Below the pieces are notes generated by a model. It was not told where the DNA came from, did no database searches, and saw only the letters and a list, made by a program, of their open reading frames with translations. Positions 8,618-37,118 of a stretch of 64,000 nt of DNA are shown piece by piece. Source of the DNA: Bordetella parapertussis (GTDB lineage: Bacteria; Pseudomonadota; Gammaproteobacteria; Burkholderiales; Burkholderiaceae_C); the NCBI GenBank assembly GCA_945861305.1, contig CAMATW010000005.1, positions 16,399 through 80,398 of the forward strand. The letters are read 5' to 3'. The first letter of the stretch is position 1; every line of letters starts with the position of its first letter. The translations under genes and the position numbers were made by a program.

Positions 8618-8621
8618 GGGC

Positions 8622-8779
8622 TTGTCCTTGCGAAGGACGAAGTAGCGAACAAAACAAGACGTGTGTCGCAGGTCGACCGTAGCCTACGTTGTGCCAGCAT
8701 GGAGGCGAGGCCGAGCCTGCGGCGCAGGGCTTTGGCGATAGAGGTTGCTTCAGGGCTTCGCCCTTCGCAATGACAGTTA
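8622..8779. repeat. Dispersed palindromic repeat, copy A
   Basis: The segment 8661-8722 matches 28851-28912 at 57 of 62 positions by direct comparison. It contains GTCGCAGG and a nearly self-complementary GTCGACCGTAGCCTAC stretch, then a GGAGGCGAGGCCGAGCC block. Its right end, with GCTTC and CTTCGCAATGAC, is the same as the right ends of the copies at 28.5-29.0 and 37.0-37.1 kb. It lies between two converging genes and has no reading frame, like REP/MITE-type repeats. Confidence 0.75.
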
Positions 8780-9778
8780 GAGCCCTTTAAGCGCGGTGCT
8801 CTCCAAACCCGCCGCCTTGCAGTCATCGATGTACTGGCGAATAACGTCTTGGAAATTGGCATCAGGCTGCAAGCCCAAGCGAGGGGCGCGTAAGGCTTTG
8901 GCACCCTTGGGCCAATTGGCGACGATGCCAGCGACGCGCTCATCGCGTTGAAACTTCACACGGGCTCGCACCGCAGGACCCGCCACCGCTTCCAAGGCAT
9001 CGAGCATTTGCTGCACCGTGACATTCAGGGCAGGCAAATTCATTGCGCTTCGGCCTTGGAAATCCTCGGCGCTGGCTTCAAAAATCGCAATCAAACTGCG
9101 CACCGTCACGCCAGGTGACGAGACGGGGTGCGACACCGTGGCGTCCACAGGGCAAATGGATTCCTCACCTGCCAAGGGTTCGCGCAAGATGCCGCTGAAA
9201 AACGAAGAGGCTGCACCGTTTGGCTTGCCAGGGCGCACACTGACTGTCATCAGGCGAGCGCTTCGGCCATCGATAAAGCCTTTGCGACTGTAGTCGGCCA
9301 CCATAACCTCGCACATCAATTTTTGTGCGCCGTACGAGGTTTGTGGCGTGGTGAAGGTGTCGTCGGTGACGACATCGGGCAAAGGATGGGCTGGGTCGGG
9401 GCCGTACACCGCCACCGAGCTGCTGAACAGCAAACGTGGCTTGTTGCCAGCCGAACGCAAGGCGTCGAGCAAGGCGCGGGTACTGTCCACATTCGAGCGC
9501 ATACCCAAATCAAAATCAGCTTCGCACTCGCCTGAAACCGCAGAGGCCAGATGGAACACGCCGTCGAACTTGGCCTGTGCAAATCCGGCGCATTGATCTA
9601 GCAAAGGTCCCGTCAACACCGCCACGCGGTGGTCTGCAGCCAAATCGGCAGGGGCAGGAAATTGATCCGCCAAAACGACTTGGGTGAGTGTTTGGCCAGC
9701 CAGTGTGCCTTTGGCCAACAGGGTACGTGCCAAGCGGACGCCTAAGAATCCGGCTCCGCCGGTGATCAACAGCTTCAT
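8777..9778 (-). CDS. denD: D-erythronate dehydrogenase-like NAD-dependent epimerase/dehydratase
   Basis: The 333-residue protein belongs to the extended short-chain dehydrogenases. Its NAD-binding motif is GGAGFLGVRLARTL at the N-terminus, with SSSVAVYG and YGAQK (the YxxxK pair) as catalytic parts. The SVRPGKPNGAASSFFSGI segment is typical of DenD, which oxidises D-erythronate in four-carbon sugar-acid catabolism. The usual partner genes otnK and otnC are not in the window, so the substrate is inferred from family resemblance. GAGG lies six bases before the ATG at 9778. The gene is divergent from the ABC importer operon and converges on the dehydratase. Confidence 0.8.
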   Translation of the reverse strand: MKLLITGGAGFLGVRLARTLLAKGTLAGQTLTQVVLADQFPAPADLAADHRVAVLTGPLLDQCAGFAQAKFDGVFHLASAVSGECEADFDLGMRSNVDSTRALLDALRSAGNKPRLLFSSSVAVYGPDPAHPLPDVVTDDTFTTPQTSYGAQKLMCEVMVADYSRKGFIDGRSARLMTVSVRPGKPNGAASSFFSGILREPLAGEESICPVDATVSHPVSSPGVTVRSLIAIFEASAEDFQGRSAMNLPALNVTVQQMLDALEAVAGPAVRARVKFQRDERVAGIVANWPKGAKALRAPRLGLQPDANFQDVIRQYIDDCKAAGLESTALKGL

Positions 9779-9940
9779 GGTGTGCCTCGGTTACAAAGAA
9801 AAGAGTCACAGCATAACCGCCAACACTTCTCAGAATGTAGGCTTTGTCAACGGGTTAGCCCTGATGGACGCCGTACCATCGACAGGTAAGCTTGATTTCA
9901 ATGATGCGTCCTGTGCGCACCCCCTCTTGCGGAGTTTTCC

Positions 9941-11005
9941 ATGGCCAGCGTCACCATCGGTCAAGTACACAAGTACTTTGGCCGCACCCACATCATCCAA
10001 GGTGTCAGCGTGGATATCGCCGATGGCGAGTTTTGCGTGCTGGTTGGCCCCTCGGGTTGTGGCAAATCCACCTTGCTGCGCATGATTGCAGGCCTTGAGG
10101 AAATCTCGGGCGGCGATATTTACATTGGCGACAAACGTGTCAACGACATGCCGCCCAAAGAGCGTGACATCGCGATGGTTTTCCAAAACTACGCCCTCTA
10201 TCCCCACATGACGGTGCGCGACAACATGGCGTTTTCTTTGTTGCTGGCCAAACAATCCACACAAGTCATTGCTGAACGGGTCGACATCGCCGCTGGCATC
10301 TTGGGTTTGCATTCCCTCTTAGACCGCTTTCCCCGCCAACTCTCAGGCGGGCAGCGCCAGCGGGTGGCCATGGGTCGCGCCATCGTGCGTGACCCGCAGG
10401 TGTTTTTGTTTGACGAGCCGCTATCCAACCTTGACGCCAAGCTGCGCGTGTCCATGCGCACCGAAATCAAAGAGCTGCACCAACGCCTGAAAACCACGTC
10501 CATTTACGTCACCCACGACCAAATTGAGGCCATGACCATGGCCGACAAAATCGTCGTCATGCGCGATGGCGTGGTCGAGCAAATTGGCTCACCCCTGCAG
10601 CTTTACGACCACCCTGCCAACCAGTTTGTGGCGGGCTTCATTGGCTCGCCCTCTATGAACTTTTTGCCCGGTACGGTGCGCGGTGCGCAAGTGGCGCTGC
10701 CTGATGGCATCTTGCTGCCCATGCCCCTGAATGCCCGCGCCAACGAAGGCCAAGCGGTGATTTACGGCATACGACCCGAACATTTGGCCATTGCCAGCGG
10801 CAGCGAGGGATTGGCCACCGAGGTGGTGGTGGTCGAGCCGACAGGCGCAGACACCCAAGTGTTCACCAAAATTGCAGGCGTAGAAGTGACCTCGGTGTTT
10901 CGCGAGCGCCATACCTTCACGCCTGGCAGCACCATCCGTTTGCAACCCGACGCGAGCCGCGCCCATTTGTTTGACGCTGCCAGCGGCAAAGCCCTCAAGC
11001 CTTAA
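9941..11005 (+). CDS. ABC transporter ATP-binding protein, MalK/UgpC type
   Basis: The 354-residue ATPase has Walker A GPSGCGKST (about 37-45), signature LSGGQRQRVAMGRAIV, Walker B VFLFDEPLSNLDAKLR and switch His in VTHD. About 110 C-terminal residues form the OB-fold regulatory domain typical of MalK/UgpC/MsmX subunits of CUT1 importers. It energises uptake by the two permeases encoded two genes downstream. The start at 9941 follows a GGAG sequence. It is the first gene of a four-gene operon with substrate-binding protein and permeases. The sugar or polyol transported cannot be read from this subunit. Confidence 0.93.
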   Translation: MASVTIGQVHKYFGRTHIIQGVSVDIADGEFCVLVGPSGCGKSTLLRMIAGLEEISGGDIYIGDKRVNDMPPKERDIAMVFQNYALYPHMTVRDNMAFSLLLAKQSTQVIAERVDIAAGILGLHSLLDRFPRQLSGGQRQRVAMGRAIVRDPQVFLFDEPLSNLDAKLRVSMRTEIKELHQRLKTTSIYVTHDQIEAMTMADKIVVMRDGVVEQIGSPLQLYDHPANQFVAGFIGSPSMNFLPGTVRGAQVALPDGILLPMPLNARANEGQAVIYGIRPEHLAIASGSEGLATEVVVVEPTGADTQVFTKIAGVEVTSVFRERHTFTPGSTIRLQPDASRAHLFDAASGKALKP

Positions 11006-11040
11006 CGCGCACACCCAACCCCATTGCCACAGGAGGCTTT

Positions 11041-12360
11041 ATGACCGAAACCACCCGTCGCCAATTCATCCAATCCACCAGTGTTGCCACCGGCGCTGTG
11101 GCTGCCGCGCCCATGCTCTTCAGTACCCCCGCTGGTGCGCAATGGACCAATGTGCCCGAGAAAGACGCCAAGCTGCGGGTGCTTCGCTGGAGCCGCTTTG
11201 TGCAGGGTGACATCGACACCTACTTGGCCAATGTCAAAAAATTCACCGAAAAAACCGGCATTGAGGTGCGGGTGGACAACGAGGGCTGGGAAGATGTGCG
11301 CCCCAAAGCGGCTGTAGCGGCCAACACTGGCGCAGGCCCCGACATCATCTTGTCCACCAACGATGACGCCAACCTCTATCCCGACAAACTGCTCGATGTC
11401 TCCGACGTTTGCGACTACTTAGGCAAAAAATACGGCGGCTGGTACCCCGCTTGCGAAACTTACCTCAAACCCGATGGCAAAAAATGGATAGGTGTGCCAC
11501 TGGGGGCCAGCGGCGCCATCATGGTGTATCGCCAAAGCCATCTCAAGGCCGCAGGCATCACCACCTTCCCCAAGGACACTGACGGCTTTTTGAAAATGTT
11601 CCAAGCCCTCAAGTCAAAAGGCACACCCGGCGGCATGGCGCTGGGCAACGCCACCGGCGACAGCGGTTGGACGCACTGGCTCATTTGGGCCTTTGGCGGC
11701 TCTATCGTCGACAAAAATAACAAGGTGATCATCAACAGCCCGCAAACCGTCAAGGCCTTGGAGTTCGCCAAAGAGCTTTATGCCACCTTCATCCCCGGTA
11801 CCTTGTCGTGGCTTGACCCGAACAACAACAAAGCATTTTTGGATGGCCAACTCAGCGTCACCAACAACGGCATTTCCATCTATTACGCAGCAAAAAAATC
11901 GGACAATCCCACGGTCAACGCGCTCGCCGCAGACATTGGACACGCCCCGTTTCCTGTGGGCCCTGTGGGCATCCCCACCGAGTACCACTTGTTTTTCAAC
12001 CAAATGATTTTCAAGTACACCAAGTACCCTAACGCAGCCAAAGAATTTTTGCGTTTCATGATGGAAGAAGAGCAGTACGGTGCTTGGTTGCAAGGCGCAG
12101 GCGGCTATGTGTCGCACCCTTTGGCGGCCTATGGCAAAAATCCCATCTGGACGGTGGACCCCAAGCACACTCCCTACCGCGATTCAGTGAAAAACATGCG
12201 CCCTTCGGGCTATGCCGGTCAACTGGGCTATGCCTCTGCGGGTGCCATGGCTGACTTCATCGTCTGCAATATGGTGGCCGAAGCCGCCTCGGGTGCCCAA
12301 ACCCCCGAAGCCGCCGCCCAACGCGCCCAAAAACGCGCTGAACGCTATTACAAAACCTGA
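11041..12360 (+). CDS. ABC transporter extracellular sugar-binding protein (family 1), Tat-exported
   Basis: The 439-residue protein begins TETTRRQFIQSTSVATGA, with a twin-arginine RRQF signal and an AGA cleavage region near residue 35. Tat export implies it folds before reaching the periplasm. The rest is a family 1 extracellular solute-binding fold, with GPDIILSTNDDANLY and a C-terminal MMEEEQYGAWL helix region. It should capture a carbohydrate or polyol for the adjacent importer. AGGAGG lies upstream. Its stop shares one base with the start of the next gene (TGATG), so translation is probably coupled. The ligand is unknown; sugar-acid neighbours hint at a sugar-derived substrate. Confidence 0.92.
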   Translation: MTETTRRQFIQSTSVATGAVAAAPMLFSTPAGAQWTNVPEKDAKLRVLRWSRFVQGDIDTYLANVKKFTEKTGIEVRVDNEGWEDVRPKAAVAANTGAGPDIILSTNDDANLYPDKLLDVSDVCDYLGKKYGGWYPACETYLKPDGKKWIGVPLGASGAIMVYRQSHLKAAGITTFPKDTDGFLKMFQALKSKGTPGGMALGNATGDSGWTHWLIWAFGGSIVDKNNKVIINSPQTVKALEFAKELYATFIPGTLSWLDPNNNKAFLDGQLSVTNNGISIYYAAKKSDNPTVNALAADIGHAPFPVGPVGIPTEYHLFFNQMIFKYTKYPNAAKEFLRFMMEEEQYGAWLQGAGGYVSHPLAAYGKNPIWTVDPKHTPYRDSVKNMRPSGYAGQLGYASAGAMADFIVCNMVAEAASGAQTPEAAAQRAQKRAERYYKT

Positions 12361-13262
12361 TGCTGACTCGACTGCAAAACAGCCGCAACGGGCTGGGCCT
12401 GCTGTTCATGCTGCCCGCCACGGCGCTGCTGGTCGTCTTTCTTACCTACCCGCTGGGTTTGGGCATTTGGCTGGGCTTTACCGACACCAAGATCGGGCGC
12501 GAAGGCATGTTCATTGGCCTAGAGAACTACGAATTTTTATGGGAGGACGCTGTCACCCGCTTGGCCTTGTTCAACACCTTGTTTTATACCTTTGTGGCCA
12601 GTGTGCTGAAGTTCTTTTTAGGTCTGTGGCTTGCGATTTTGCTCAATGAGCGTATGCCCTTCAAAACTTTTTTTCGCTCGGTCATTTTATTGCCCTACAT
12701 CGTGCCCACCGCTTTGTCGGCGATCGCTTTTTGGTGGCTGTACGATGCGCAGTTTTCCATCATCAGCTGGGTGCTGGTCAAAGCCGGTTGGATTGATAAC
12801 TACATCGACTTCTTAGGCGACCCTTGGAACGCACGTTTCTCAGTGCTGGCCGCCAATGTGTGGCGCGGCGTACCGTTTGTGGCCATCACCTTGCTGGCAG
12901 GATTGCAAACCATTTCACCTTCGTTGTATGAAGCCGCAGCCATTGATGGCGCTACCGCTTGGCAACGCTTTCGCCACATCACCTTACCCTTGCTCACCCC
13001 CATGATTGCGGTGGTGATGACGTTTTCAGTGCTCTTCACCTTCACCGACTTTCAGCTGATCTACGTCATCACACGCGGTGGCCCCCTTAACGCCACACAC
13101 CTGATGGCCACGCTGTCTTTCCAACGCGCCATCTCCGGCGGGGCTTTAGGCGAAGGAGCAGCAATTGCCATCTCTATGGTCCCGTTTTTACTGGCCGCAA
13201 TTTTGTTCAGTTACTTCGGGTTGCAAAGACGCGCCTGGCAACAAGGGGGCAGTGACAAATGA
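12360..13262 (+). CDS. ABC transporter permease, CUT1 type (MalF/UgpA-like)
   Basis: The 300-residue protein has about six hydrophobic segments. The EAA loop that contacts the ATPase appears as YEAAAIDGATAWQRFRHITLPLL near residue 190. This is the first of the two inner-membrane channel subunits. It overlaps the binding-protein gene by one base and the next permease by four (ATGA), placing it firmly in the operon. Length is usual for the family. Confidence 0.93.
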   Translation: MLTRLQNSRNGLGLLFMLPATALLVVFLTYPLGLGIWLGFTDTKIGREGMFIGLENYEFLWEDAVTRLALFNTLFYTFVASVLKFFLGLWLAILLNERMPFKTFFRSVILLPYIVPTALSAIAFWWLYDAQFSIISWVLVKAGWIDNYIDFLGDPWNARFSVLAANVWRGVPFVAITLLAGLQTISPSLYEAAAIDGATAWQRFRHITLPLLTPMIAVVMTFSVLFTFTDFQLIYVITRGGPLNATHLMATLSFQRAISGGALGEGAAIAISMVPFLLAAILFSYFGLQRRAWQQGGSDK

Positions 13263-14134
13263 GCGATTCCAAAGACGACGACAGCCAAGGCATGGGCTAT
13301 TTGGACACGGCTCGCACCCGTTGGATGACGGTGTACGCGCCGCTGGGTATTTTTGTGTTTGTGTTGTTGTTTCCTTTTTACTGGATGATCATCACCTCGG
13401 TCAAGCCCAACAACGAATTGCTTTCGCGTGACGGCAACCCGTTTTGGGTAATCAAGCCAACCTTAGAGCATTTCCACAAACTGCTGTTCAAAACCGCCTA
13501 CCCCGAGTGGCTCTGGAACACGGTTTTCATCTCGGTCATCTCCACTGTGGTGTCGCTGGCTTGTGCGGTGCTGGCGGCTTACGCCATTGAGCGCCTGCGC
13601 TTCAAAGGCTCGCGCCAAGTGGGACTGGGCATTTTTCTGGCCTATTTGGTGCCACCCTCTATTTTGTTCATTCCCTTGGCCACCATTGTTTTCAAGCTGG
13701 GCTTGTTTGACACCCGCTGGGCGCTGATCCTGACCTACCCCACTTTCCTGATCCCCTTTTGCACGTGGTTGCTGATGGGCTACTTCCGCTCTATTCCCTT
13801 TGAGCTTGAAGAGTGCGCTTTGATTGATGGCGCCACTCGCTTTGAAATTTTGTGGAAGATCATCTTGCCGCTGTCGGTGCCAGGGCTCATTTCCGCTGGT
13901 ATTTTTGCCTTCACCTTGTCGTGGAACGAGTTCATTTACGCCCTCACCTTCATCTCGTCTTCCGAGGTGAAAACCGTACCGGTCGGGGTCATCACCGAAC
14001 TGGTCGAGGGCGATGTCTACCACTGGGGCTCACTCATGGCGGGTGCCTTGTTTGGTTCGATACCCGTGGCGGTGCTGTACTCGTTCTTTGTCGACCACTA
14101 TGTGTCGGGCATGACAGGCGCGGTCAAGGAATAA
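13259..14134 (+). CDS. ABC transporter permease, CUT1 type (MalG/UgpE-like)
   Basis: The 291-residue inner-membrane protein has a cytoplasmic N-terminus and about six membrane segments. The EAA motif reads ELEECALIDGATRFEILWKI near residue 180, with the usual G-A spacing. It pairs with the preceding permease to form the translocation path. The start ATG overlaps the previous stop by four bases. The operon seems to end here: a small hairpin and pdxH follow. Confidence 0.93.
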   Translation: MSDSKDDDSQGMGYLDTARTRWMTVYAPLGIFVFVLLFPFYWMIITSVKPNNELLSRDGNPFWVIKPTLEHFHKLLFKTAYPEWLWNTVFISVISTVVSLACAVLAAYAIERLRFKGSRQVGLGIFLAYLVPPSILFIPLATIVFKLGLFDTRWALILTYPTFLIPFCTWLLMGYFRSIPFELEECALIDGATRFEILWKIILPLSVPGLISAGIFAFTLSWNEFIYALTFISSSEVKTVPVGVITELVEGDVYHWGSLMAGALFGSIPVAVLYSFFVDHYVSGMTGAVKE

Positions 14135-14142
14135 GATAAGCC

Positions 14143-14158
14143 CCTTCTCAATAGAAGG
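14143..14158 (+). promoter_or_regulatory. Small hairpin that includes the pdxH ribosome-binding site
   Basis: CCTTCT and AGAAGG pair perfectly around CAAT. The right arm AGAAGG is the only Shine-Dalgarno-like sequence before the pdxH ATG at 14167 (eight bases away). The hairpin could limit pdxH translation or act as a weak end to the ABC operon. There is no T-tract after it. Confidence 0.35.
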
Positions 14159-14166
14159 TGTGGGTG

Positions 14167-14808
14167 ATGACCAAAATTTCGCTGGCCGATATGCGCAAGA
14201 GCTACCAAAGCGCCGAGCTTTTGGAAGAAAGCGCACAAATCCACCCTATGCGGCAGTTCGAGCAATGGCTGCATGAAGCCTTGCAAGCCGAGGTCCCTGA
14301 GCCCAACGCCATGACCTTGGCCACCGTCGGCAGCGATATGCGCCCGAGCACCCGCGTGGTGCTCATCAAAGGCTATGACGACCACGGACTGGTTTGGTAC
14401 ACCAATTACGACAGCCGCAAAGGCCAAGAGCTGGCAGGCAACCCTTTTGCTTCGCTGCAATTTCACTGGGTAGAGCTCGAGCGTGTGGTGCGTATCGAGG
14501 GCCGTGTGAGCAAAATCAGTGAAGAGGAAAGCGACGCTTACTTCCACAGCCGCCCCTTGGACTCACGCATAGGCGCTTGGGCCAGTCCGCAAAGCCAAGT
14601 GATTGCTTCTCGTACACAGTTGGTGACCCAAGCCGCCAGCTACATGGCGAAATTTGGTATGAAGCCACCCCGCCCGCCACACTGGGGGGGCTACAGGCTC
14701 ACGCCTGATCGCTGGGAGTTTTGGCAAGGCGGTGTGGCACGTTTGCATGACCGCCTGAGCTACCGTCTGCAAGACGGCGCATGGGCCCAAGAACGGTTGG
14801 CGCCTTAA
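14167..14808 (+). CDS. pdxH: Pyridoxamine 5'-phosphate oxidase
   Basis: The 213-residue protein shows [25 protein letters not shown], whose parts are the FMN-binding start of the family, then [19 protein letters not shown] and the C-terminal segment ending DRLSYRL. PdxH oxidises pyridoxine or pyridoxamine 5'-phosphate to pyridoxal 5'-phosphate with FMN in the cytoplasm. I chose the ATG at 14167 because AGAAGG lies eight bases upstream. A GTG at 14158 in the same frame is possible. Family length is about 210-220 residues. Its 3' end converges on msrA. Confidence 0.95.
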
Positions 14809-14822
14809 GTCAGGGCTTTAGG

Positions 14823-15371
14823 TTAAGGTTTAAGCCAATGCACAAAGTGTTGCTGCAGTTTTTTTACCTTGGGAGCCACCACAAAGGTGCAATAGCCTTG
14901 GTGGGGGTTGTGCTGGAAATAGTCTTGGTGGTAATCCTCGGCGGGCCAATAGTGTTCTAGCGGCATGACCTCGGTCACGATGGGACTGTCAAACTGCCCC
15001 AAACTGGTCACCTCAGAGATCAACTGCAAAGCCGCCATGTGGTCTGCATCATTAGAAACATAAATGCCACTGCGGTACTGGGTGCCCACATCGTTGCCTT
15101 GGCGGTTCAAGCTGGTCGGGTCGTGAATCTCGAAAAAAATGTCCAAGATGTCACGCAAAGTGATGATGCTGTTGTCATACCGCAAACGCACCACTTCGTT
15201 AAAACCGGTGCGCCCTGTGCAGACTTGTTCATAGGAGGGACGCGCGGGCCCCAAGCCATTGCTGTAACCCGACTCGACATCCAATACCCCACGCACACGC
15301 ACAAACACCGCCTCTGTGCACCAGAAACAGCCTCCGCCCAAAGTGATGGTTGAATTTGCCATGCAGAGCAT
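14823..15371 (-). CDS. msrA: Peptide methionine sulfoxide reductase MsrA
   Basis: The protein of about 182 residues carries the catalytic motif GGCFWCTEAVF near the N-terminus, followed by GYSNG and the conserved YHQDYFQHNPHQGYC block near the C-terminus. It reduces methionine-S-sulfoxide in damaged proteins. AGGAG lies eight bases before the ATG at 15371 (MLCMANS), so I prefer that start. ATG at 15362 and GTG at 15380 are alternatives. The gene converges on pdxH with 14 bases between. Confidence 0.95.
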   Translation of the reverse strand: MLCMANSTITLGGGCFWCTEAVFVRVRGVLDVESGYSNGLGPARPSYEQVCTGRTGFNEVVRLRYDNSIITLRDILDIFFEIHDPTSLNRQGNDVGTQYRSGIYVSNDADHMAALQLISEVTSLGQFDSPIVTEVMPLEHYWPAEDYHQDYFQHNPHQGYCTFVVAPKVKKLQQHFVHWLKP

Positions 15372-15427
15372 CTTAGCCACTCCTGTTCCCTGTGGGAAAC
15401 TCAGGGCATTGAGCTTGCCCTTTGCCT

Positions 15428-16189
15428 ATGCTGACCTGGATTGGCCCTTACAAACCCCTGATTTCTGCCCTGTTGATGCCGCCTGCCAGCCTTTTGCTGC
15501 TGATGTTGGCGGGTGTGGTGTTGATGAGGTTCTCTAAGCGCTGGGGTAAAGCCATTTGTGCGATTGGGGCTGTGCTGCTCTGGGTGCTCAGCTGCAGCGC
15601 CACCGCTTACGGTCTGAATCAACTTTTGCTGCGCACTTACCCGCCGCTTGCCACAGAAGCTTTGGAGCAAGCCCAAGCTATCGTGGTGCTAGGCGGGGGC
15701 ATCGAGTTGTATGCACCGCAGTATGGTCGGCCCATCATCGGCTCAGAGGCCCACCAACGCTTGGTTTATGGTAGGTACTTAAAATCCCTTCACGACTTGC
15801 CATTGGTGTACAGCGGAGGCAAGGGCTGGGGCGCACCCTCAGCTCAAACCGTGACCGAGGCGCAAGTGGCTGCCTATGTGCTGCAGCGAGATTTTGGTCA
15901 GACTTTCCTCTTGGGCGATGAGGAGTCACGGGACACCCGCGAAAACGCTTTGCGTTCTTATGCCGTTTTGTCGGTCAAGGGGATTAAGCGCATTGCATTG
16001 GTTACCCACGACTGGCATATGCAGCGCAGCGTCATGCTGTTTGAGGCTGCAGGCTTTGAGGTGATGCCCGCCCCCATGGGATACACCCAGCCGCCCATGC
16101 GCTGGGACACCGATTACCTGCCCTCGACAGATGGACTCAGATCCAGCAAAAGGGTTTTACATGAGTGGCTGGGTCGGTTACATTACTAA
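15428..16189 (+). CDS. YdcF/ElyC-type DUF218 membrane protein
   Basis: The protein has 253 residues. Two N-terminal hydrophobic segments (about 12-32 and 40-60) precede a DUF218 domain beginning AIVVLGGGIELYAPQYG, with LGDEESRDTRENA and LVTHDWHMQRSVMLFEAAG later. This is the layout of ElyC/SanA/YdcF proteins, linked in Escherichia coli to cell-envelope polysaccharide and peptidoglycan precursor metabolism. The function in this organism is inference. ATG at 15428 is preferred over TTG at 15422. The stop codon lies inside a palindrome that may be the operator of the following tetR gene. Confidence 0.85.
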   Translation: MLTWIGPYKPLISALLMPPASLLLLMLAGVVLMRFSKRWGKAICAIGAVLLWVLSCSATAYGLNQLLLRTYPPLATEALEQAQAIVVLGGGIELYAPQYGRPIIGSEAHQRLVYGRYLKSLHDLPLVYSGGKGWGAPSAQTVTEAQVAAYVLQRDFGQTFLLGDEESRDTRENALRSYAVLSVKGIKRIALVTHDWHMQRSVMLFEAAGFEVMPAPMGYTQPPMRWDTDYLPSTDGLRSSKRVLHEWLGRLHY

Positions 16190-16200
16190 CCAGTCAGTCA
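16183..16200. promoter_or_regulatory. Candidate TetR-type operator
   Basis: TTACTAAC and GTCAGTCA form an imperfect inverted repeat around CA (six of eight arm positions match). It ends five bases before the regulator start. TetR repressors of RND pumps commonly bind such palindromes next to their own gene, so autoregulation is the likely role. It also overlaps the end of the DUF218 gene. Confidence 0.45.
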
Positions 16201-16205
16201 TTAAT

Positions 16206-16859: not shown

Positions 16860-16887
16860 GAAGACCCTTTTATCGGAGCAAGCGCAG

Positions 16888-18078: not shown

Positions 18079-18081
18079 GCC

Positions 18082-21279: not shown

Positions 21280-21312
21280 AATTTCACCAATGAGCCGCTA
21301 CAAAGAATCGCT

Positions 21313-21966: not shown

Positions 21967-21989
21967 AACGCTCACCCCAAAGGAAGACC

Positions 21990-23333: not shown

Positions 23334-23337
23334 TCCC

Positions 23338-27004: not shown

Positions 27005-27053
27005 CGCGGTATTGTAGAAGCTGAGCTTGGCCAGACCGTCATCGCTCCATCGT

Positions 27054-28492: not shown

Positions 28493-28594
28493 TCGCCATC
28501 ATTACAGTCCTTCTTCATTGCGAGCGAAGCGAAGCAATCTCCCATCCTTGCGAAGCCCATAGGCAGAAGCAATCTCCCGTCGAGCGCCACAGGT

Positions 28595-28641
28595 TCGGCC
28601 TCGCCTCCATGCTTGCACAACGTCGGCTACGGCCGACCTGC
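28595..28641 (+). repeat. 47-bp inverted repeat, left arm
   Basis: Begins TCGGCCTCGCCTCCATGC and ends GGCCGACCTGC. It is an exact reverse complement of 28858-28904 by base-by-base comparison. Each arm itself contains GTCGGC/GCCGAC, so it can fold on its own as well as with its partner. Confidence 0.85.
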
Positions 28642-28857
28642 GACGCTCACCATGAGTGAAGCCGTCATTGCGAGGAGTTGTCATTGCGAGGAGCACAGCG
28701 ACGAAGCAAACTGACGAAGCAAACTGACTAAAGTTTGCTTAGAGCTATGGCCTGGCCATGACATTCGAAATATTTGTCGCTGCTCAATCTTCGCTCCTGC
28801 AAAGCTAGAAATCTTGATTGGTGTGAGATGTACTGCCTACCTTAGACGGCGTGTGTT

Positions 28858-28904
28858 GCAGGTCGGCCGTAGCCGACGTTGTGCAAGCATGGAGGCGAGG
28901 CCGA
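28858..28904 (-). repeat. 47-bp inverted repeat, right arm
   Basis: Begins GCAGGTCGGCCGTAGCCGAC and ends GGAGGCGAGGCCGA. It is the exact reverse complement of 28595-28641, and is the same unit found near 8661-8722 with five differences over 62 bases. Confidence 0.85.
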
Positions 28905-29012
28905 GCCTGCGACATGCGCCGTGGGGGGAAGATTGCTTCGTCAGTTTGCCTCGTCGCTACGCTTCTCGCAATGATGGCTAGTTGCAATGACGGCTAACCG
29001 CAATCACGAGGG

Positions 29013-29858: not shown

Positions 29859-29864
29859 AGCGCT

Positions 29865-30296: not shown

Positions 30297-30320
30297 GGAA
30301 GGCTCCGGTAAGGGGTAGGG

Positions 30321-31250
30321 TTAGCTCGATCCTGAAGGCAGGACTTGTACAGGGTTGATGACCCTGTCTTTATTAAATACTTCGTAATGCAAATGGGGGC
30401 CGGTCGAACGTCCTGTGCTACCGACCTCTCCCAAAGCGCCGCCGCGCTCGACCACATCACCTACTTGCGCAATGCGCTTACTTAGGTGGGCATAGCGTGT
30501 GGCGAAACCTTCTGCGTGATGAACCTCGATGACATTGCCATAACTGGGGTCCCAAGCAGATCGGGTGACTTTGCCCTGAGCGGTAGAAACCACCAAGGTG
30601 CCCGTTGGCGCGGTGAAATCTAAGCCTTCATGCATGGCCAAACCACCGGTGAAAGGGTCGTTACGAATACCAAAACCGCTGGTGATGCGAAAGTCGCCCC
30701 GCACAGGCATGGCCGTTGGCAAGGAATGCAGCCACTCGAGTTGCTTTTCCCAATGGATGTGCAATTGCGACACGGCGGTCTGGGTTTGTAAAAATTCTTG
30801 CAACGTTTGGTCGAACTCTATGCCCAAAGGCTGACGAATAAATGAAGAGAACGGCCGAGGTGCTATGAACGGGCCACCCTTGTTTTCGTCCTTACGGTTG
30901 ACTTTGTCGCGCACCACGTTGGGCGTGGCCATTTCCATGAACCTGTTTTTCATGGTTTCGAGCTGGCGAATTTCATTGACGGTGGTGTGCATAGATTCGC
31001 GCAATTGGGACAAGTGGTCTCGGTAGACCGACTCCATACGCTTTTGCTCAGCTTCGGTGGTGACGCCACCAATGCTTCGAGCAAGGTCTGGGTTGTACTC
31101 AACTGCTATTTTGAAACCCACAAAATGCAACAGGAAACCCGCACTGAGCAAAAACAGCGCAACAACCGAGGTAGACATCAACACCGTGCGAAAGGTGATG
31201 GATATCGTCCTGACATTTCCAGTCGGCCCTGAAAGCCACATCAATTGCAT
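30321..31250 (-). CDS. M23-family metallopeptidase (bactofilin-associated)
   Basis: The 309-residue protein has one membrane anchor near the N-terminus (VLMSTSVVALFLLSAGFLLH), a coiled-coil rich in Glu/Arg (about 75-125) and a C-terminal LytM domain. The zinc motif is HEGLDF near 205, with HLHYEVF near 290 completing the site, so the peptidase looks catalytically intact. It should cut peptidoglycan cross-links in the periplasm. I chose ATG 31250 because AGGGA lies six bases upstream. ATG 31292 has no such site. Confidence 0.9.
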   Translation of the reverse strand: MQLMWLSGPTGNVRTISITFRTVLMSTSVVALFLLSAGFLLHFVGFKIAVEYNPDLARSIGGVTTEAEQKRMESVYRDHLSQLRESMHTTVNEIRQLETMKNRFMEMATPNVVRDKVNRKDENKGGPFIAPRPFSSFIRQPLGIEFDQTLQEFLQTQTAVSQLHIHWEKQLEWLHSLPTAMPVRGDFRITSGFGIRNDPFTGGLAMHEGLDFTAPTGTLVVSTAQGKVTRSAWDPSYGNVIEVHHAEGFATRYAHLSKRIAQVGDVVERGGALGEVGSTGRSTGPHLHYEVFNKDRVINPVQVLPSGSS

Positions 31251-31378
31251 AAATCGTCCCTGTGAGTACCTGTCCAGAAACAGGATCGCCATTCTAGGCC
31301 CATAGCTTTAGCGCTCCAAGCAAAAAAAGCCTAAAAATCCCGTAAATATATTAAAAAGTATTCAAAAATAAAGGGTGT

Positions 31379-32185
31379 TTACCCCCAAAACCGGCTCACC
31401 CAGTCGCTAAAGAACCATACGGCAGTCAGATTTGTCAGCCAGGCCCAAAAAAAGCGATTCAGCCCAAAGAACCAGAAAACCAAAAAATGAAACACTGCGG
31501 CGATAAGCATGAACAGCAATGCCCCGTTCGGGTTGAGCAAGCCCAAGGGGAACACCGCTTCCCACAAAATAAATGCCCAACTGCAAACCAAGGCCACCTT
31601 GGGGCGGCGAAAAATGCTGTCCGGAGGTAAGGGGCCATATATGCCTCCATTGAGAAAAACGGTGAGCGCTCGCCCACTTCGCCACTCGGGTTGTAGCAGT
31701 TTGATCCAACCAGAAACGAAATAGGAGCTAAGGGTATGGATGGCGATGTAGGACAAACCCACAGCCCAACCCAAGCCCTTTCCTGCCCAAAGCAACACCA
31801 CTTGGGCAATCAAAATCCCCGTGATAGTCACCAAGGTCATGAAATCACTTCCGCCATTGAAAGCACCGCGCCAACGCACCAGCAGCAAAAGCGTTCCTGC
31901 AAACAAGACCAAGGCCAAACCTAAACTGGCACCTTGGACGACCAAAACAACTGCCGCCAAACCCCTTACCCACAATTGCACACGGTAAGGCGTTGGTTGA
32001 AACATGGCATCGAAGAAGCGCCTGACCCAAGTCGGTTGGAGCGGTACATCTGAGCGTTGAACCGGCCAAGACCAAATGCCCTGCGTATCAGTGCTGTGGG
32101 CTATTCGAAGGTATTCGGCCACTTGAATAAGCAAACTGATGCCGCACAAGACCTCTAGACAACGCACCAAGGTGTCGCCGTTCAT
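31379..32185 (-). CDS. HTTM-like multi-pass membrane protein
   Basis: The 268-residue protein has about six to seven hydrophobic segments, including VRGLAAVVLVVQGASLGLAL and FMTLVTITGILIAQVVLLWA. Conserved-looking WIKLLQPEWRSGRAL and RRPKVALVCSWAFILWEAVF resemble HTTM (vitamin K-dependent carboxylase-like) proteins. The resemblance is weak and no catalytic residue can be assigned. Its start overlaps the stop of the following membrane-protein gene upstream by four bases (ATGA), so the two are co-translated. The function is unknown. Confidence 0.6.
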   Translation of the reverse strand: MNGDTLVRCLEVLCGISLLIQVAEYLRIAHSTDTQGIWSWPVQRSDVPLQPTWVRRFFDAMFQPTPYRVQLWVRGLAAVVLVVQGASLGLALVLFAGTLLLLVRWRGAFNGGSDFMTLVTITGILIAQVVLLWAGKGLGWAVGLSYIAIHTLSSYFVSGWIKLLQPEWRSGRALTVFLNGGIYGPLPPDSIFRRPKVALVCSWAFILWEAVFPLGLLNPNGALLFMLIAAVFHFLVFWFFGLNRFFWAWLTNLTAVWFFSDWVSRFWG

Positions 32186-32685
32186 AGTGCAATCTCTGGG
32201 CTACGCAAGACCGTGTCGCTTTCGCCATAACCTCGCAGCGATGGACGCTCTAGGCGCAATTCAAATTGGCATACCCCTTGGGCGATATGTTCACGTGCGC
32301 TTTGTGCTGCCAAGCGGCACACCAGTTGGTAGCTGACCAAAGGCCGTGCATCCGCGCCCTCGCCCAAATCTTTGATGTCGCTTGACAAATGGTCAACCAA
32401 ATTTTGCTGCGCCAGCAGCAAGTTGCCGTGAGGGTTGTGGAACACATCCAGCACATGGCGCTGCCTTCGGGGATACACCCAATGCCAATCGCTCCACGAC
32501 TGTGCCTCGACTTGGTAGCGCATATACAAATGCGGTACCGGCCCAACTTTGTGAAAGAACTGCCAATTGGGGAAAAAAGCGCGAAACAAAAACAACCATG
32601 GCCCGCGTACCGTGTGGCGGCGGTACACCAAGGACACAGCCAGCACAGCAAAATACGCCAATAGCAACCAAACGGTTGATTCCAT
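32182..32685 (-). CDS. Conserved hypothetical membrane-anchored protein
   Basis: The 167-residue protein has one N-terminal membrane segment (STVWLLLAYFAVLAVSLVY) followed by a soluble domain with FRAFFPNWQFFHKVGPVPHL and YRYQVEAQ-like residues. I do not recognise a family. AGGAGG lies five bases before the ATG, a strong translation signal, and the gene is coupled to the multi-pass protein downstream by a 4-nt overlap. The two may form a membrane complex. The pair is divergent from minC. Confidence 0.65.
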   Translation of the reverse strand: MESTVWLLLAYFAVLAVSLVYRRHTVRGPWLFLFRAFFPNWQFFHKVGPVPHLYMRYQVEAQSWSDWHWVYPRRQRHVLDVFHNPHGNLLLAQQNLVDHLSSDIKDLGEGADARPLVSYQLVCRLAAQSAREHIAQGVCQFELRLERPSLRGYGESDTVLRSPEIAL

Positions 32686-32808
32686 TTACCCTCCTGTGTC
32701 TACTCTGAGCCATTGTCGAGGAATTCGGTTTCAACCTGCGTGCTGCTGCTAAGCGTGTAAAGTCTCATCTTTAAGAGTTTATTCAGTAACCCCCTTTATT
32801 TATTGCGC

Positions 32809-33552
32809 ATGAGCTCTCGCCCGCCCGCCCATTCCTTATCGTTTGAAATCAAAAGCGCTTCTTTGCCCTTGGTGTCTTTTATTGTGAAAAGCGCCGACAT
32901 CACTCAGGTGGCGCAAGATTTACAAACACGCTTGGGCGACACCCCCGATTTTTTTGACAACGATCCTGTTCTCGTCGATTTGCAGCACTTGGATGATCAA
33001 GCAGTACCGCTTGACTTACCCGCTTTGGTGCAACTTTTGCGAAGCTTTCGCATGAACCCTGTGGCTTTGCGCCCGAACAATACCGCGCATGAAGCCGCTG
33101 CCATCTTGGCGGGCTTGTTCCTCACCACCGAGGCTCGCACCTTGCCGCAAAACCCTGCAACACAAGAAGTGGTGCGCGAAGTGGAAGTCATTCGAGAAGT
33201 GGTGCGTGAGGTGGCCAGTGGCGGCAGTGCCATGGTGGTGGACAAGCCTTTGCGCTCAGGACAGCATCTGTATGCCAAAGGGCGCGATTTGGTCATGTTG
33301 GCGATGGTCAACCCAGGTGCGGAGATCATGGCCGATGGTCACATCCATGTATATGCCCCCCTGCGGGGTAAAGCCATTGCAGGTGCAAAAGGCGATACCT
33401 CTGCGCGTATTTTCACCAACAGCTTAGAAGCAGAGTTGCTTTCCATTGCGGGGGTTTACCGCACCAGCGACGCTCCCTTGCCCAAAGAGGTGGCCGGCAA
33501 ATCTGCCCAAGTCTGGTTAGTCGGCGATAAGCTGGTGATGCTTGCCTTGTAA
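32809..33552 (+). CDS. minC: Septum site-determining protein MinC
   Basis: The 247-residue protein has an N-terminal MinC domain (LSFEIKSASLPLVSFIV) and a C-terminal beta-helix domain (PLRSGQHLYAKGRDLVMLA, VNPGAEIMADGHIHVYAPLRG). MinC blocks FtsZ polymerisation at the poles and is recruited by MinD. The linker holds a charged repeat, EVVREVEVIREVVREV (about residues 121-136), that looks like a coiled-coil or rigid spacer. ATG 32809 is chosen over TTG 32803. The order minC-minD-minE is standard. Confidence 0.95.
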   Translation: MSSRPPAHSLSFEIKSASLPLVSFIVKSADITQVAQDLQTRLGDTPDFFDNDPVLVDLQHLDDQAVPLDLPALVQLLRSFRMNPVALRPNNTAHEAAAILAGLFLTTEARTLPQNPATQEVVREVEVIREVVREVASGGSAMVVDKPLRSGQHLYAKGRDLVMLAMVNPGAEIMADGHIHVYAPLRGKAIAGAKGDTSARIFTNSLEAELLSIAGVYRTSDAPLPKEVAGKSAQVWLVGDKLVMLAL

Positions 33553-33563
33553 ACTCCGTACTT

Positions 33564-33595
33564 CACTGCCTTTGACAAAACTGTCAAAGGCAGTG
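33564..33595 (+). promoter_or_regulatory. Perfect 14-bp-stem hairpin between minC and minD
   Basis: CACTGCCTTTGACA and TGTCAAAGGCAGTG are exact reverse complements around a four-base loop (AAAC). Only TTTC follows, so it is a weak candidate for full termination. It may reduce transcription into minDE or protect an mRNA end, and would set the MinC:MinD ratio. The minD ribosome-binding site (AAGGA) lies 11 bases after it. Confidence 0.75.
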
Positions 33596-33621
33596 TTTCA
33601 ATCAATCAAGGATTTGTTTAG

Positions 33622-34437
33622 ATGACGAAAATTGTCGTGGTGACCTCGGGCAAAGGCGGCGTGGGCAAGACCACCACCAGTGCCAGCTTTGCATCTGGTT
33701 TGGCCTTGCGTGGCCAAAAAACAGTGGTGATCGACTTCGATGTGGGTTTGCGTAACCTTGACCTCATCATGGGATGCGAGCGGCGTGTGGTGTACGACTT
33801 TGTCAACGTCATCAATGGCGAGGCCACCTTAAATCAAGCCCTGATCAAGGACAAGCATTCCGACAACCTGTATGTGTTGGCAGCATCTCAAACACGTGAC
33901 AAAGAAGCCTTGACCCAAGACGGCGTGCAACGTGTTTTGCAAGATCTCACCGGCATGGGTTTTGACTTCATCGTGTGCGACTCCCCTGCAGGCATTGAAA
34001 CCGGGGCCATGATGGCCATGCACTTTGCCGATGAGGCCTTGGTGGTGACCAACCCCGAGGTTTCCTCGGTGCGTGACTCTGACCGCATCTTAGGAATGCT
34101 CAGCAGCCGCACCTTGCGTGCGATTCAAGGCCAAGAGCCGATCAAAGAACATTTGCTCATTACCCGTTACAACCCCAACCGCGTTTTGGAAGGTCAAATG
34201 CTGTCTTTGGATGACATCCAAGACATTTTGCGCATTCCCCTGCTTGGCGTCATCCCTGAATCCGAAGATGTCTTGCAAGCCTCTAACCAAGGTTTGCCTG
34301 CGGTGTTGCTGGAAAAAAGTGATGTGGCCGAGGCCTACAAAGACGTTATCGAACGCTTTTTAGGCAAAGACGTTCCCATGCGCTTTACCGAAGCCGTCAA
34401 ACCCGGTTTGCTGCAACGCGTGTTTGGGCGGAGATAA
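33622..34437 (+). CDS. minD: Septum site-determining ATPase MinD
   Basis: The 271-residue protein has the deviant Walker A motif [19 protein letters not shown] at the N-terminus, the switch segment [18 protein letters not shown] and VCDSPAGIE, and ends in the amphipathic membrane-targeting helix [12 protein letters not shown]. It oscillates on the membrane with MinE and carries MinC. AAGGA lies nine bases upstream. The gap of 69 bases to minC contains a strong hairpin; the gap to minE is only four bases. Confidence 0.98.
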
Positions 34438-34441
34438 GCCC

Positions 34442-34702
34442 ATGTCGTTTTTGTCTTTCCTGATTGGCGAAAAGAAAAAAACCGCCAGCGTCGCCAAAGA
34501 GCGTTTGCAAATCATCTTGGCGCATGAGCGCTCGGGCCGCACGGCACACCAGCCCGACTATTTGCCCGACTTGCAACGCGATTTGATCGCGGTTTTGTCC
34601 AAATACGTCAACATCAATCCCAACGACATCAAGGTCAACTTGGAACGCCAAGACAACCTTGAAGTGCTGGAAGTGAAAATCGAGTTACCTGACGCTCGCT
34701 GA
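34442..34702 (+). CDS. minE: Cell division topological specificity factor MinE
   Basis: The 86-residue protein begins [20 protein letters not shown], the membrane-binding start of MinE. The anti-MinCD helix follows ([12 protein letters not shown]), then the C-terminal dimerisation part with [18 protein letters not shown]. It stimulates the MinD ATPase. ATG at 34442 is chosen because this start reproduces the family N-terminus. An upstream in-frame TTG would overlap minD. Confidence 0.97.
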
Positions 34703-34716
34703 AGCGTTAGCGCCCA

Positions 34717-34935
34717 TTACTTGGGGAGCTTGCCACCGCTTTTCAGACATTCATCCACTGTTTTGAACTCGGTGAATTTTTTAGTGCGCTCATAGCTGGG
34801 GCTTTTGGCGTCGTGGCATATGCCGCTATCAGATTTTTTCACCGCGGGGTCAGCGGCATACAACATACTACTGGCCAGCAACAGGGAAGACGCAAAAAAC
34901 CAAAGTTTGGTGTTCAAGATGGATAATTTCCTCAT
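34717..34935 (-). CDS. Small secreted protein of unknown function
   Basis: The 72-residue protein has a signal peptide (LWFFASSLLLASSMLYA, cleavage after about residue 27), leaving a mature part of about 45 residues. That part contains VKKSDSGICHDAKSPSYERT and ends with DECLKSGGKLPK, holding two cysteines. A similar motif (SGICH ... LDECLxSGGRxPK) occurs in many small proteobacterial exported proteins, but I know no function. No Shine-Dalgarno is obvious before the ATG at 34935. It converges on minE with 14 bases between. Confidence 0.7.
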   Translation of the reverse strand: MRKLSILNTKLWFFASSLLLASSMLYAADPAVKKSDSGICHDAKSPSYERTKKFTEFKTVDECLKSGGKLPK

Positions 34936-35377
34936 AAATTAATCTATTCATATCACTCAAGTCTTTTGACCACGCCAAGACATCTTTCTTGAGTCAACCC
35001 CCCTTTAGGGGCACTGTATGCAGTACAAACATCTGTGTCGCCATGACTGAGAGTCAAAAGGATTGAAATCCGCATGGTCCATTCCCTTGGAACGTGGCAA
35101 ATTTACGACGTTTTAACCAAGTATGCGTAAACTATTCACAAATATGTTCCGAAAATGAAACTGTAAAAGTTAGTCAAAAATAATTAAACCAAAGTGCTGG
35201 TCAGCAACCGCTTAGTGCCCTTAAGGCTAAAGAAATGTCAGTTTTAGTATCATATCTATACTTGATAGTTTGCCTATTCAGTGGAGGTTTTACTTTAACT
35301 ATTGCGCTTTAAATTATCATTTCAAATGAGTTTTTTTAATTTTCTTCTTTTAGAATCCGCTTCCCTTCGATGAAAAA
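34936..35377. other. AT-rich intergenic region upstream of the HTH/kinase/receiver cassette
   Basis: This 442-base gap between divergent genes has no credible gene. It is clearly AT-richer than its surroundings, mainly after 35100. A 7-bp inverted pair (ACTCAAG at 34956, CTTGAGT at 34988) and a CCCCTTTAGGGG element (35001-35012) are present. A possible sigma-70-like pair is TTTACT near 35290 and TAAATT near 35310. It probably contains regulatory sites, perhaps an sRNA, but I see no proof. Confidence 0.4.
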
Positions 35378-35779
35378 GTGCATGCCATGCGAAATGACCA
35401 AGATCCCCAACTAAGCACTAAATTCTTACAGGTCATTTGCCAGCTGCATGAGTGGGAAAGCAAGCATCTCGATTTGGCCACCACCCAAGCGGGGCGCTAT
35501 CTATACCTGAATATCGCCAAGCAGTTGCAAGACAACCGAAGTGGGCCGAGTGCGTTTTTAAAGGGCATTTACTACAACAAGGATTTGAGCGAACGCGCTT
35601 TGCGCTACAAAATTCGAGAGTTTGAAAACGACGGCCTGATTGAGTTTCAGGCAAACAGCAGTGACAAGCGCTCTAAGAAAATTTTGCCAACACCCGCACT
35701 TTTGAGCACGCTTGACGACCACGCCCAAGAATTCAGTCGTATGCTCAGCAACGAATTCCTGATATTTCCTAAAAAATAA
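35378..35779 (+). CDS. Winged-helix (MarR-like) putative regulator
   Basis: The 133-residue protein has no receiver or sensor domain. The segment SERALRYKIREFENDGLIEF, followed by SSDKRSKKILPT, reads like a MarR-type recognition helix and wing. It is the first of three genes in the same direction (then kinase, receiver), so it may be the output DNA-binding partner of that system. The start is GTG 35378 or ATG 35387; no strong ribosome-binding site distinguishes them. Family assignment is by motif shape only. Confidence 0.65.
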   Translation: MHAMRNDQDPQLSTKFLQVICQLHEWESKHLDLATTQAGRYLYLNIAKQLQDNRSGPSAFLKGIYYNKDLSERALRYKIREFENDGLIEFQANSSDKRSKKILPTPALLSTLDDHAQEFSRMLSNEFLIFPKK

Positions 35780-35800
35780 CCCTTCTTCCATGGCTTACCC

Positions 35801-36637
35801 ATGACATCGGCTTGGCTTGTTTCTTTTGTACTGTTAGCGGCTTTACTGGTGTTGGGCTATTTGTATCTGCAAGAAAAGCAGCTCAGCCAGTCGCAGCAAA
35901 TGGAAATTCACAAGGCTCGCTCGAGTAAGCACCATGTGAACGACTTTCTGGCGTCAATGTCACATCACCTGCGTACTCCCTTGAATGGTGTGATGGGCTA
36001 TGCCGAATACATCTACAGCAGCACCCGCGAACCGATGATTCAGTTCACCTCCAAAATCATTTTGGAAAACAGTTTACAAATGCTTCACTTGGTCAATGGC
36101 TTGCTTGACCTGAGCAAAATCCAAGAAGGCTCACTCGATTTATCCCAATCCGACTTTGACATCAACGACATGGTGGAGTCAGTTCGCGCTTTGCACCAAG
36201 CACGGGCGGATGAATTGAAAATCAGCCTGCACGTTAATTTGGCTCCCCAACTGCCCTCGCAATTGCGTGCAGACCCTTACCGGGTGCGCCAAGTACTGAA
36301 CAATTTGGTCGACAACGCTTTGAATTACAACCGCCCACAGGGCAGCGTGACCCTGTCGGTCACACCCAGCGCCAATGGTTTATGGGTGGTTTTTTCTGTA
36401 CAAGATACTGGTAGAGGCATTTCCCCTGAAATGCAAGAGACTATCTTCAAGCGCCAGCAAAAGTCTGATAACCCCTTTGTGCTGCGCCCCAATGAAGGCG
36501 CTGGCTTGGGACTGGTGCTGAGCCACCACTTGATCGAACTCATGGGCGGCACACTTAACTATTCGAGCAAAGCCGGCGAAGGTAGCGTGTTCTTTTTTAA
36601 CTTGCCCATACGCTCAGAAAGTCACAAGCCCTCATGA
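35801..36637 (+). CDS. Sensor histidine kinase with minimal sensor region
   Basis: The 278-residue kinase has one N-terminal membrane helix (SAWLVSFVLLAALLVLGYLY) and no periplasmic or PAS domain. The H-box is LASMSHHLRTPLNGVMGY with the phospho-accepting His near residue 53. The N-box is LNNLVDNALNY, G1 VQDTGRGISPE and G2 GAGLGLVLSHHL. All are intact. A sensor of this size must detect its signal in the membrane or cytoplasm. It overlaps the receiver gene by four bases (ATGA), and the two form a pair. Confidence 0.88.
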   Translation: MTSAWLVSFVLLAALLVLGYLYLQEKQLSQSQQMEIHKARSSKHHVNDFLASMSHHLRTPLNGVMGYAEYIYSSTREPMIQFTSKIILENSLQMLHLVNGLLDLSKIQEGSLDLSQSDFDINDMVESVRALHQARADELKISLHVNLAPQLPSQLRADPYRVRQVLNNLVDNALNYNRPQGSVTLSVTPSANGLWVVFSVQDTGRGISPEMQETIFKRQQKSDNPFVLRPNEGAGLGLVLSHHLIELMGGTLNYSSKAGEGSVFFFNLPIRSESHKPS

Positions 36638-36993
36638 GCGCTGCATTGAATATTGTGGTGATTGACGATAACTCCACCAACCGTCTATTGCCAGGCCTGT
36701 TTTTGCGTCCTCTGGGCCATGCGGTGAATGAATGCGTTGGTGCCGAAGAAGCACTTGAGTGGCTAATGCACAACCCTTGCGATGTGATCTTGCTCGATAT
36801 TTCCATGCCCAGCGTCAGCGGCTTGCAACTGTGCAAGCAACTGCGTGCTAATGAGCGTTATAAGCATCTCCAGATCATCGCTTACACCGCCCACGCCATG
36901 CCCGACGAGGTATTGCTGTGGGAAACCTCGGGTTTTGACAAGGTATTGCTCAAACCCATACGCAAAGACGATTTGCTCGCACTCTTCAGCTAG
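36634..36993 (+). CDS. Stand-alone receiver (CheY-like) response regulator
   Basis: The 119-residue protein is a single receiver domain: acidic pocket IDDN near residue 11, phospho-acceptor Asp in VILLDISMP, switch Thr in AYTAHA and Lys in LLKPI. There is no output domain. Its start overlaps the kinase stop by four bases. It probably relays phosphate to another protein or binds a partner; the nearby HTH protein is a candidate. Its end runs into the repeat at 37.0 kb. Confidence 0.88.
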   Translation: MSAALNIVVIDDNSTNRLLPGLFLRPLGHAVNECVGAEEALEWLMHNPCDVILLDISMPSVSGLQLCKQLRANERYKHLQIIAYTAHAMPDEVLLWETSGFDKVLLKPIRKDDLLALFS

Positions 36994-37004
36994 TGTCCTG
37001 ATCC

Positions 37005-37118
37005 GTCACTGCGAGCGTAGCGAAGCAATCCCCCGTCATCAGCCACGCGTCGCAGGCTCGACGAGCCTGCGACGCTCGACTTTTAACAGATTGCTTCGAC
37101 CTTCGGTCTCGCAATGAC
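37005..37118. repeat. Dispersed palindromic repeat, copy C
   Basis: Outer arms GTCACTGCGAG/GCGAAGCAATC (37005-37030) and GATTGCTTCG/CTCGCAATGAC (37089-37118) are near-perfect reverse complements. The centre 37047-37075 is a perfect palindrome: 14-base arms around one A, with left arm GCGTCGCAGGCTCG. It lies between the converging receiver and acs genes. It shares outer motifs with copies A and B but has a shortened core. Confidence 0.85.

Follow-up and report, generated by a model that had tools for sequence, protein, structure and literature searches.

CGTC-tagged palindromic hairpins between converging genes in a 64-kb stretch labelled Bordetella parapertussis and in other genomes

Di Nocera, De Gregorio and Rocco defined in 2013 a superfamily of repetitive extragenic palindromes (REPs) that carry a CGTC tag (PMC3733652). 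In the sections of that paper available to us, CGTC REPs lie mainly between convergent and same-direction open reading frames (ORFs), and the convergent copies, drawn for two families, mostly fall less than 20 bp from both 3′ ends. They form pairs with structured spacers, also from unlike arms; some lie inside genes, and no transposase is reported with them. The published families have an unpaired CGTC tag (or TGTC/CCTC) at one end, a stem of 8-9 bp that opens with complementary AT, a loop of 4-5 nt (with loop exceptions) and the tail CCA, and their dimers are mostly head-to-head (PMC3733652). Here we describe a palindromic repeat of this kind in the window, a stretch of 64,000 nucleotides from an assembly labelled Bordetella parapertussis (GCA_945861305.1, contig CAMATW010000005.1), where tagged hairpin arms occupy three gaps between converging genes.

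The repeat motifs stand where the first-pass annotation of the window had placed them. A fuzzy scan (up to 2 mismatches) put all five arms of the 64 kb within the three gaps, and the remaining six of the 9 convergent pairs are at most 30 bp apart or overlap, both as that annotation had claimed. Genes were called with our own codon-usage caller, not a standard annotator, and at least one of the six short pairs (34702/34717) depends on a weakly scored short ORF. The repeat was present in 3/9 convergent versus 0/51 other gaps (Fisher p=0.0025), and every convergent gap longer than 30 bp was filled. The units are short hairpins arranged as inverted pairs in all three gaps; the pair in the 8.6-kb gap consists of one good arm and a degenerate opposite one. 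Folding of 37004-37140 beat 200/200 shuffles (z=-4.44). An additional motif, an inner palindrome with the core GCATGGAGGCGAGGCCGA, occurs in three copies in two of the three gaps (8.6 kb, 28.5 kb). In the near set (the window and genomes G001-G005), 32/35 matches to this core, one site being counted twice, have an arm no more than 300 bp away, so the module behaves as an arm spacer or companion. Comparison of the window with Rfam gave one tRNA as the only match, and no repeat matched above the gathering score.

An arm consists of a (C/T)GTC tag, an ATTGC outer stem, GA, an inner stem enclosing a loop, GAA, and GCAAT. GTC of the tag and the outer bases ATTGC/GCAAT were fixed by the search pattern itself and the arm centre was left free; the base before GTC was C or T in 114/126 arms of the near set, 39/39 of G239 and 19/20 of G179. 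ViennaRNA folding of the forward RNA predicted the ATTGC/GCAAT stem, its bases being set by the search pattern, in 4/5 consensus-like example arms; the GGAGC..GCGAC arm type gave a different fold. The inner stems covary: 46 distinct centres had a mean Watson-Crick stem of 2.65. Shuffling the letters gave 0.40 and exchanging 3′ halves between copies gave 1.48, and 2.65 was reached in 0/1000 trials. As the copies are related, the covariation counts variants, not independent events. The variants include GGCC/GGCC, GGGGC/GCCCC, AGCCC/GGGCT, GACC/GGTC and an A/T-rich form in G267; this 1.9-Mb genome has odd inner stems on an unchanged outer stem, the A/T-rich one being GTATTTTTATAAAAAATAC.

The loop has three bases in 75/93 arms, a set in which one arm was entered twice, and 53 of these 75 are G-N-A (23/24 in G239, 5/6 in G071, only 9/18 in G179). 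G-N-A triloops and G.A steps have been linked to very stable DNA mini-hairpins. The arm tail is nearly constant in G239 (C 38, C 38, A 38 of 39) and G179 (C 18, C 18, A 19 of 20); in the 126 near-set arms it begins with C in 120, followed by T in 80 or C in 32 and then by C in 61 or A in 29. Neighbours at most 200 bp apart are head-to-head in 19/19 cases in G239, and the two found in G179 are head-to-tail.

The arms resemble CGTC REPs in the CGTC/TGTC tag, the pairs, the 3′-end placement, the presence of some copies inside genes and the lack of a linked transposase, as far as the available sections describe them (PMC3733652); their stem also starts with AT, at bases set by the search pattern. 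The tag, the convergent or same-direction placement near 3′ ends and the absence of a dedicated transposase (PF01797 only) were all found here, with placement exceptions in G179, where tandem gaps show no 3′ bias, and G005, where 3/13 divergent gaps are filled. A stem of 8-9 bp with a loop of 4-5 nt was not found in the arms examined. We place the arms in the CGTC superfamily as a structural variant outside its four families. The paper assigns RPE-4 and RPE-6 of Rickettsia conorii and dRS3 of Neisseriae to CGTC-4, CGTC-1 and CGTC-1, respectively (PMC3733652). A motif-letter search of the open-licence literature returned no paper with this arm motif, and the word 'convergent' is absent from the portions of PMC12306157 and PMC2817692 available to us. 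The first-pass annotation had taken the kind of element as known and the placement rule as the interesting point; the bias itself was published in 2013 (PMC3733652, available sections), and the pattern seen here largely repeats that earlier description.

GTAG REPs with RAYT transposases (REPINs/BIMEs) are likewise short palindromes outside genes that often form inverted pairs, but the arms lack the GTAG tag and no Y1 locus holds an arm pair. The transposase search used PF01797 only. It gave no match in the incomplete bins G001, G002 and G005 and, at E<=0.001, none in 12/18 other copy-rich genomes, including G419 (210 exact arms) and G580 (184). An arm pair was present in 0/16 Y1 loci (14 distinct places, as two genes gave two loci each, viewed up to about 1.5 kb per side), which argues against mobilisation by RAYT; a single 2-mismatch arm at locus L311 was the sole arm among them. 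The GGGGWSAS repeats (TIR), which occur at genes of the related transposase TIRYT in the available sections of PMC3733652, are also a palindromic family in the same genome group, with one copy after acs in G003. Their sequence is unrelated to the arms, and it is they that flank the Y1 genes of 231-241 amino acids: of the four genes in G003, G004, G071 and G179, three have AATTGGGGTCAGAT repeats on either side and the fourth has them on a single side. By eye, the four RAYT-like Y1 genes (L131, L132, L133, L134) all adjoin the 5′ end of a glutamate-synthase-like gene, a shared position that suggests a single old insertion.

The convergent bias also holds outside the window. It was counted in stretches picked mostly for holding repeats (G001-G005, G071, G179, G096+G033 and the window). 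The count omits called genes shorter than 150 bases or mostly within repeat clusters, the G001 contig that carries locus L001, and clusters at stretch ends and inside genes (respectively 8 and 3 in G001, 3 and 0 in G002, 0 and 1 in G003+G004, 4 and 1 in G005, 2 and 0 in G071, 2 and 4 in G179). Repeats were found in 16/38 convergent versus 7/186 other gaps in G001 (p=2e-9) and in 8/14 versus 8/87 in G005 (p=1e-4); the bias was weaker in G002 (4/11 versus 3/42, p=0.027) and G003+G004 (2/5 versus 1/26, p=0.06). G071 gave 3/7 versus 0/30 (p=0.0045), although two of these three gaps, of 1.4 and 3.8 kb, probably contain missed genes, and G096+G033 gave 0/1 versus 2/15. A 770-kb sample of G001, made up of 50 stretches (nine repeat-holding ones and other contigs C2-C50, at most 20 kb each), gave 8/86 versus 4/595 (p=1.5e-5), with 12 repeat-bearing gaps out of 16 clusters. 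Among the G001 gaps of at least 60 bp, 7/19 convergent, 3/134 tandem and 1/72 divergent gaps held a repeat; by eye, some of the 12 repeat-free convergent ones hold tRNAs or missed genes. In the distant 8.0-Mb single-contig chromosome G239, two 200-kb chunks, picked after the copy list was known, gave 13/62 versus 6/282 (p=8e-7; 19/20 clusters used).

For each kb of intergenic DNA outside the repeats, the gaps with a repeat numbered 4.17 convergent, 0.95 tandem and 0.49 divergent in the near set, whose contigs were mostly chosen for repeats, and 1.18, 0.12 and 0.06 in G239. The placement rule of the first-pass annotation extends to G001, G239 and G005, and more weakly to G002 and G003+G004, but it is not universal, as seen in G179 and in the 7/19 filled G001 gaps of at least 60 bp.

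The repeats lie close to stop codons. Convergent repeats of the near set have a median of 18.5 nt to the flanking stops, and those in its tandem gaps (n=15) a median of 13 nt past the upstream stop and 53 ahead of the downstream start. In G239 the convergent median is 22.5 nt to the stop, but its 5 tandem repeats, with medians of 65 nt after the upstream stop and 30 before the next start, are closer to the latter. Among arms that are the nearest to a stop and no more than 100 nt from it, 53/78 in the near set, 20/23 in G239 and 18/23 in G179 are forward-sense. Single arms in tandem gaps showed no sense bias (2 versus 2, 0 versus 2 and 9 versus 7, respectively).

Exact arms numbered 45 in G001, 22 in G005, 12 in G002, 2 in G004, 1 in G003 and 0 in G006, and the reversed search pattern had 0 matches in all six. 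With G001 included in both, the repeat was present in 5/200 genomes of a family sample and in 28/398 of a phylum sample, with a maximum of 227 copies; 19 genomes of the phylum sample have at least ten exact arms. Its distribution is patchy, yet it is abundant where present. Some copies lie inside genes. In an hrpA-like helicase gene (DUF3418; L140:1391-4573 in G001, L159:3-1607 in G005) the arms are part of the reading frame, 7/7 in the same one, and would encode VIAS.AKQ peptides, and the DUF3418 site is common to both genomes. Two further genes, one for a radical-SAM protein and one for a molybdopterin-binding dehydrogenase, each contain a single arm (L125:4731-4755; L151:1231-1255).

The history of the copies was followed at orthologous gaps. 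The acetate-CoA ligase at the third gap is 97% identical (best segment) to that of G001 (L001), 95% to those of G002 (L002), G004 (L004) and G005 (L012), and 93% to that of G003 (L003). The G001 bin, labelled Bordetella parapertussis (label unconfirmed), may be mislabelled; the next closest AcsA records are labelled Comamonadaceae or Betaproteobacteria. The acs gap is 149 bp in the window and 499 bp in G002, with common ends and arm positions, and the shorter version in the window resembles that of G002 with the middle deleted; the perfect inverted repeat at 37047..37075 is apparently the remnant of the longer inner element of G002 after an internal deletion. G001 shows a further loss, at a contig end. 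In G003, acs is followed by a different palindrome with GGGGTCAGATCCCAATTAATT and then, by eye, by a different gene. The post-acs spaces from L005:11968, L006:6108 and L008:4047 onward contain GGGGTC.GA/TCTGACCCC motifs; since these motifs stand there in other relatives, unrelated repeats seem to collect at the same acs 3′ end. In the gap between the EamA transporter and the hydrolase, the inner module is common to the window, G002 and G005, the arm beside the hydrolase stop differs among them, and G003 is nearly empty. The two G004 copies of the gap between the short-chain dehydrogenase/reductase and the dehydratase measure about 10 and 80 bp and hold no repeat. From these gaps, the copies look old, inherited in place, and altered by deletion and arm exchange.

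Table 1. Features of the three repeat-bearing convergent gaps of the window
Feature	Position	Strand	Basis or flanking genes
Convergent gap with REP pair	8604..8776	.	flanks: dihydroxy-acid dehydratase-like 6864-8603 + / D-erythronate dehydrogenase-like 8777-9778 -
Degenerate opposing arm	8623..8642	+	inverted pair with 8756-8775, 90% complementary
Inner palindromic module	8665..8725	+	core 8697-8718; outer limits by eye
REP arm GTCATTGCGA-AGGGC-GAA-GCCCT-GAAGCAAC	8744..8774	-	arm scan
Convergent gap with composite REP element	28493..29012	.	flanks: EamA transporter / alpha-beta hydrolase
REP arm TTCATTGCGA-GCGAAGC-GAAGCAAT	28514..28538	+	arm scan
Inner module copy 1	28590..28651	-	62-nt inverted pair with 28848-28909, 92% complementary
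REP arm GTCATTGCGA-GGAGCACAGCGAC-GAAGCAAA	28680..28710	+	arm scan; inside 66-nt inverted pair 28660-28725 / 28930-28995
Inner module copy 2	28848..28909	+	inverted-pair search
Degenerate opposing arms	28930..28995	-	inverted pair, 83% complementary
Convergent gap with REP pair	36994..37142	.	flanks: response regulator / acetate-CoA ligase
REP arm GTCACTGCGA-GCGTAGC-GAAGCAAT	37005..37029	+	arm scan
Perfect 14-nt inverted repeat	37047..37075	.	inverted-pair search
REP arm GTCATTGCGA-GACC-GAA-GGTC-GAAGCAAT	37090..37118	-	arm scan

These elements are probably CGTC-tagged REP hairpins that are old and inherited, are tolerated at 3′ ends, have spread by some route, and are foldable in both converging mRNAs. 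The arms, often head-to-head around a nested palindromic spacer, would have spread in the past by a route without a linked Y1 transposase among the loci examined. They would now be largely inherited in place, and the orthologous gaps suggest that copies differ by exchanged arm variants and internal deletions. Judging from placement, insertions into promoters and most coding sequence may have been selected out, so that REPs would survive mainly just past stop codons, above all between converging genes, and the transcribed hairpins would probably structure the 3′ ends of both converging mRNAs.

Several observations weigh against this account. The outer bases common to all arms were imposed by the search. 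The arms depart from the CGTC REPs of the available sections (PMC3733652) in a 5-bp stem, a GA/GAA internal loop, a variable stem and a mostly 3-nt loop, and in the near set also in a tail other than CCA and in 24/43 same-sense pairs, such pairs being negligible in the paper; the 24 same-sense neighbours there exceed the 17 head-to-head ones, with 2 tail-to-tail. In G179, 24/25 repeat-bearing gaps are tandem (tandem 24/157, convergent 1/26, divergent 0/26), and the repeats in its tandem gaps show no 3′ bias, with medians of 60 nt from the upstream stop and 75.5 to the downstream start; many G179 matches are two-mismatch variants with the end GGCAAT. The repeats of G005 extend to 3/13 divergent gaps. 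Purging by selection is itself deduced from placement.

It is possible, though we regard it as unlikely, that the pair is a functional two-way 3′-end device: the first arm of each converging transcript would fold into a hairpin that halts 3′ exonucleases or that, together with Rho, prevents transcription from running on into the gene opposite. The closeness to stops, the forward sense of most stop-proximal arms, the covarying inner stems, and the conservation of the outer arms at the acs gap while the middle varies are all consistent with such a function. However, head-to-head pairing may by itself produce the sense bias, as single tandem arms show none, and 78/86 convergent gaps of G001 are without a repeat. 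T-rich tails, moreover, follow just 13/246 arms (a raw count, without a background rate), so the arms are not classical intrinsic terminators, and the role in transcription termination proposed in the first-pass annotation is not supported in its intrinsic form; they share with intrinsic bidirectional terminators the hairpin between converging genes but not the T-rich tail. Substitution for terminators was counted in convergent gaps up to 600 bp. Among those of at least 25 bp, terminators were found in 2/35 repeat-bearing versus 3/11 repeat-free gaps of the near set (p=0.08) and in 2/12 versus 2/35 of G239 (p=0.27). Gaps below 25 bp gave 2/92 and 0/11, and shuffled sequence gave 4/175 and 3/55 (near set) and 1/60 and 5/175 (G239).

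We consider it improbable that the machinery itself targets convergent 3′ ends, for example via supercoiling, in place of selective removal elsewhere. The density of repeat-bearing gaps, highest in convergent space in the near set and G239, and the unrelated palindromic repeat after acs in G003 would fit such a preference, but the tandem placement in G179, the copies inside genes and the lack of a linked Y1 enzyme at the 16 loci speak against it. A further idea, also rather doubtful, is that the arm is a single-stranded-DNA element whose outer stem and purine loop are read by an enzyme that copies, exchanges or folds back the self-complementary centre; convergent gaps may then be places where such events survive, and the differing arm centres at the EamA/hydrolase gap of the window, G002 and G005 would be a trace of centre rewriting. 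That the pattern is an artefact of gene calling or metagenome-assembled-genome assembly is hardly credible: the stretch-end clusters in five bins, the home-made gene caller and some long 'gaps' that are probably missed genes point that way, but the same bias is seen in the single contig of G239 and in the window, where the genes beside the gaps belong to recognisable families.

The available sections of PMC3733652 count the repeats in each gap type, whereas here placement is compared with the gaps available. In G239, repeat-bearing gaps are about 10 times as dense in free convergent space as in free tandem space, and about 20 times as dense as in divergent space, where a single gap holds a repeat. 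To the description of such repeats, the analysis adds a GA/GAA internal loop with a covarying inner stem, a clear counter-example genome in G179, and orthologous long, short and empty sites. In this small set of orthologous gaps the repeat may be long, short, replaced by another form or missing, which makes selection, target choice and 3′-end function separable by experiment.

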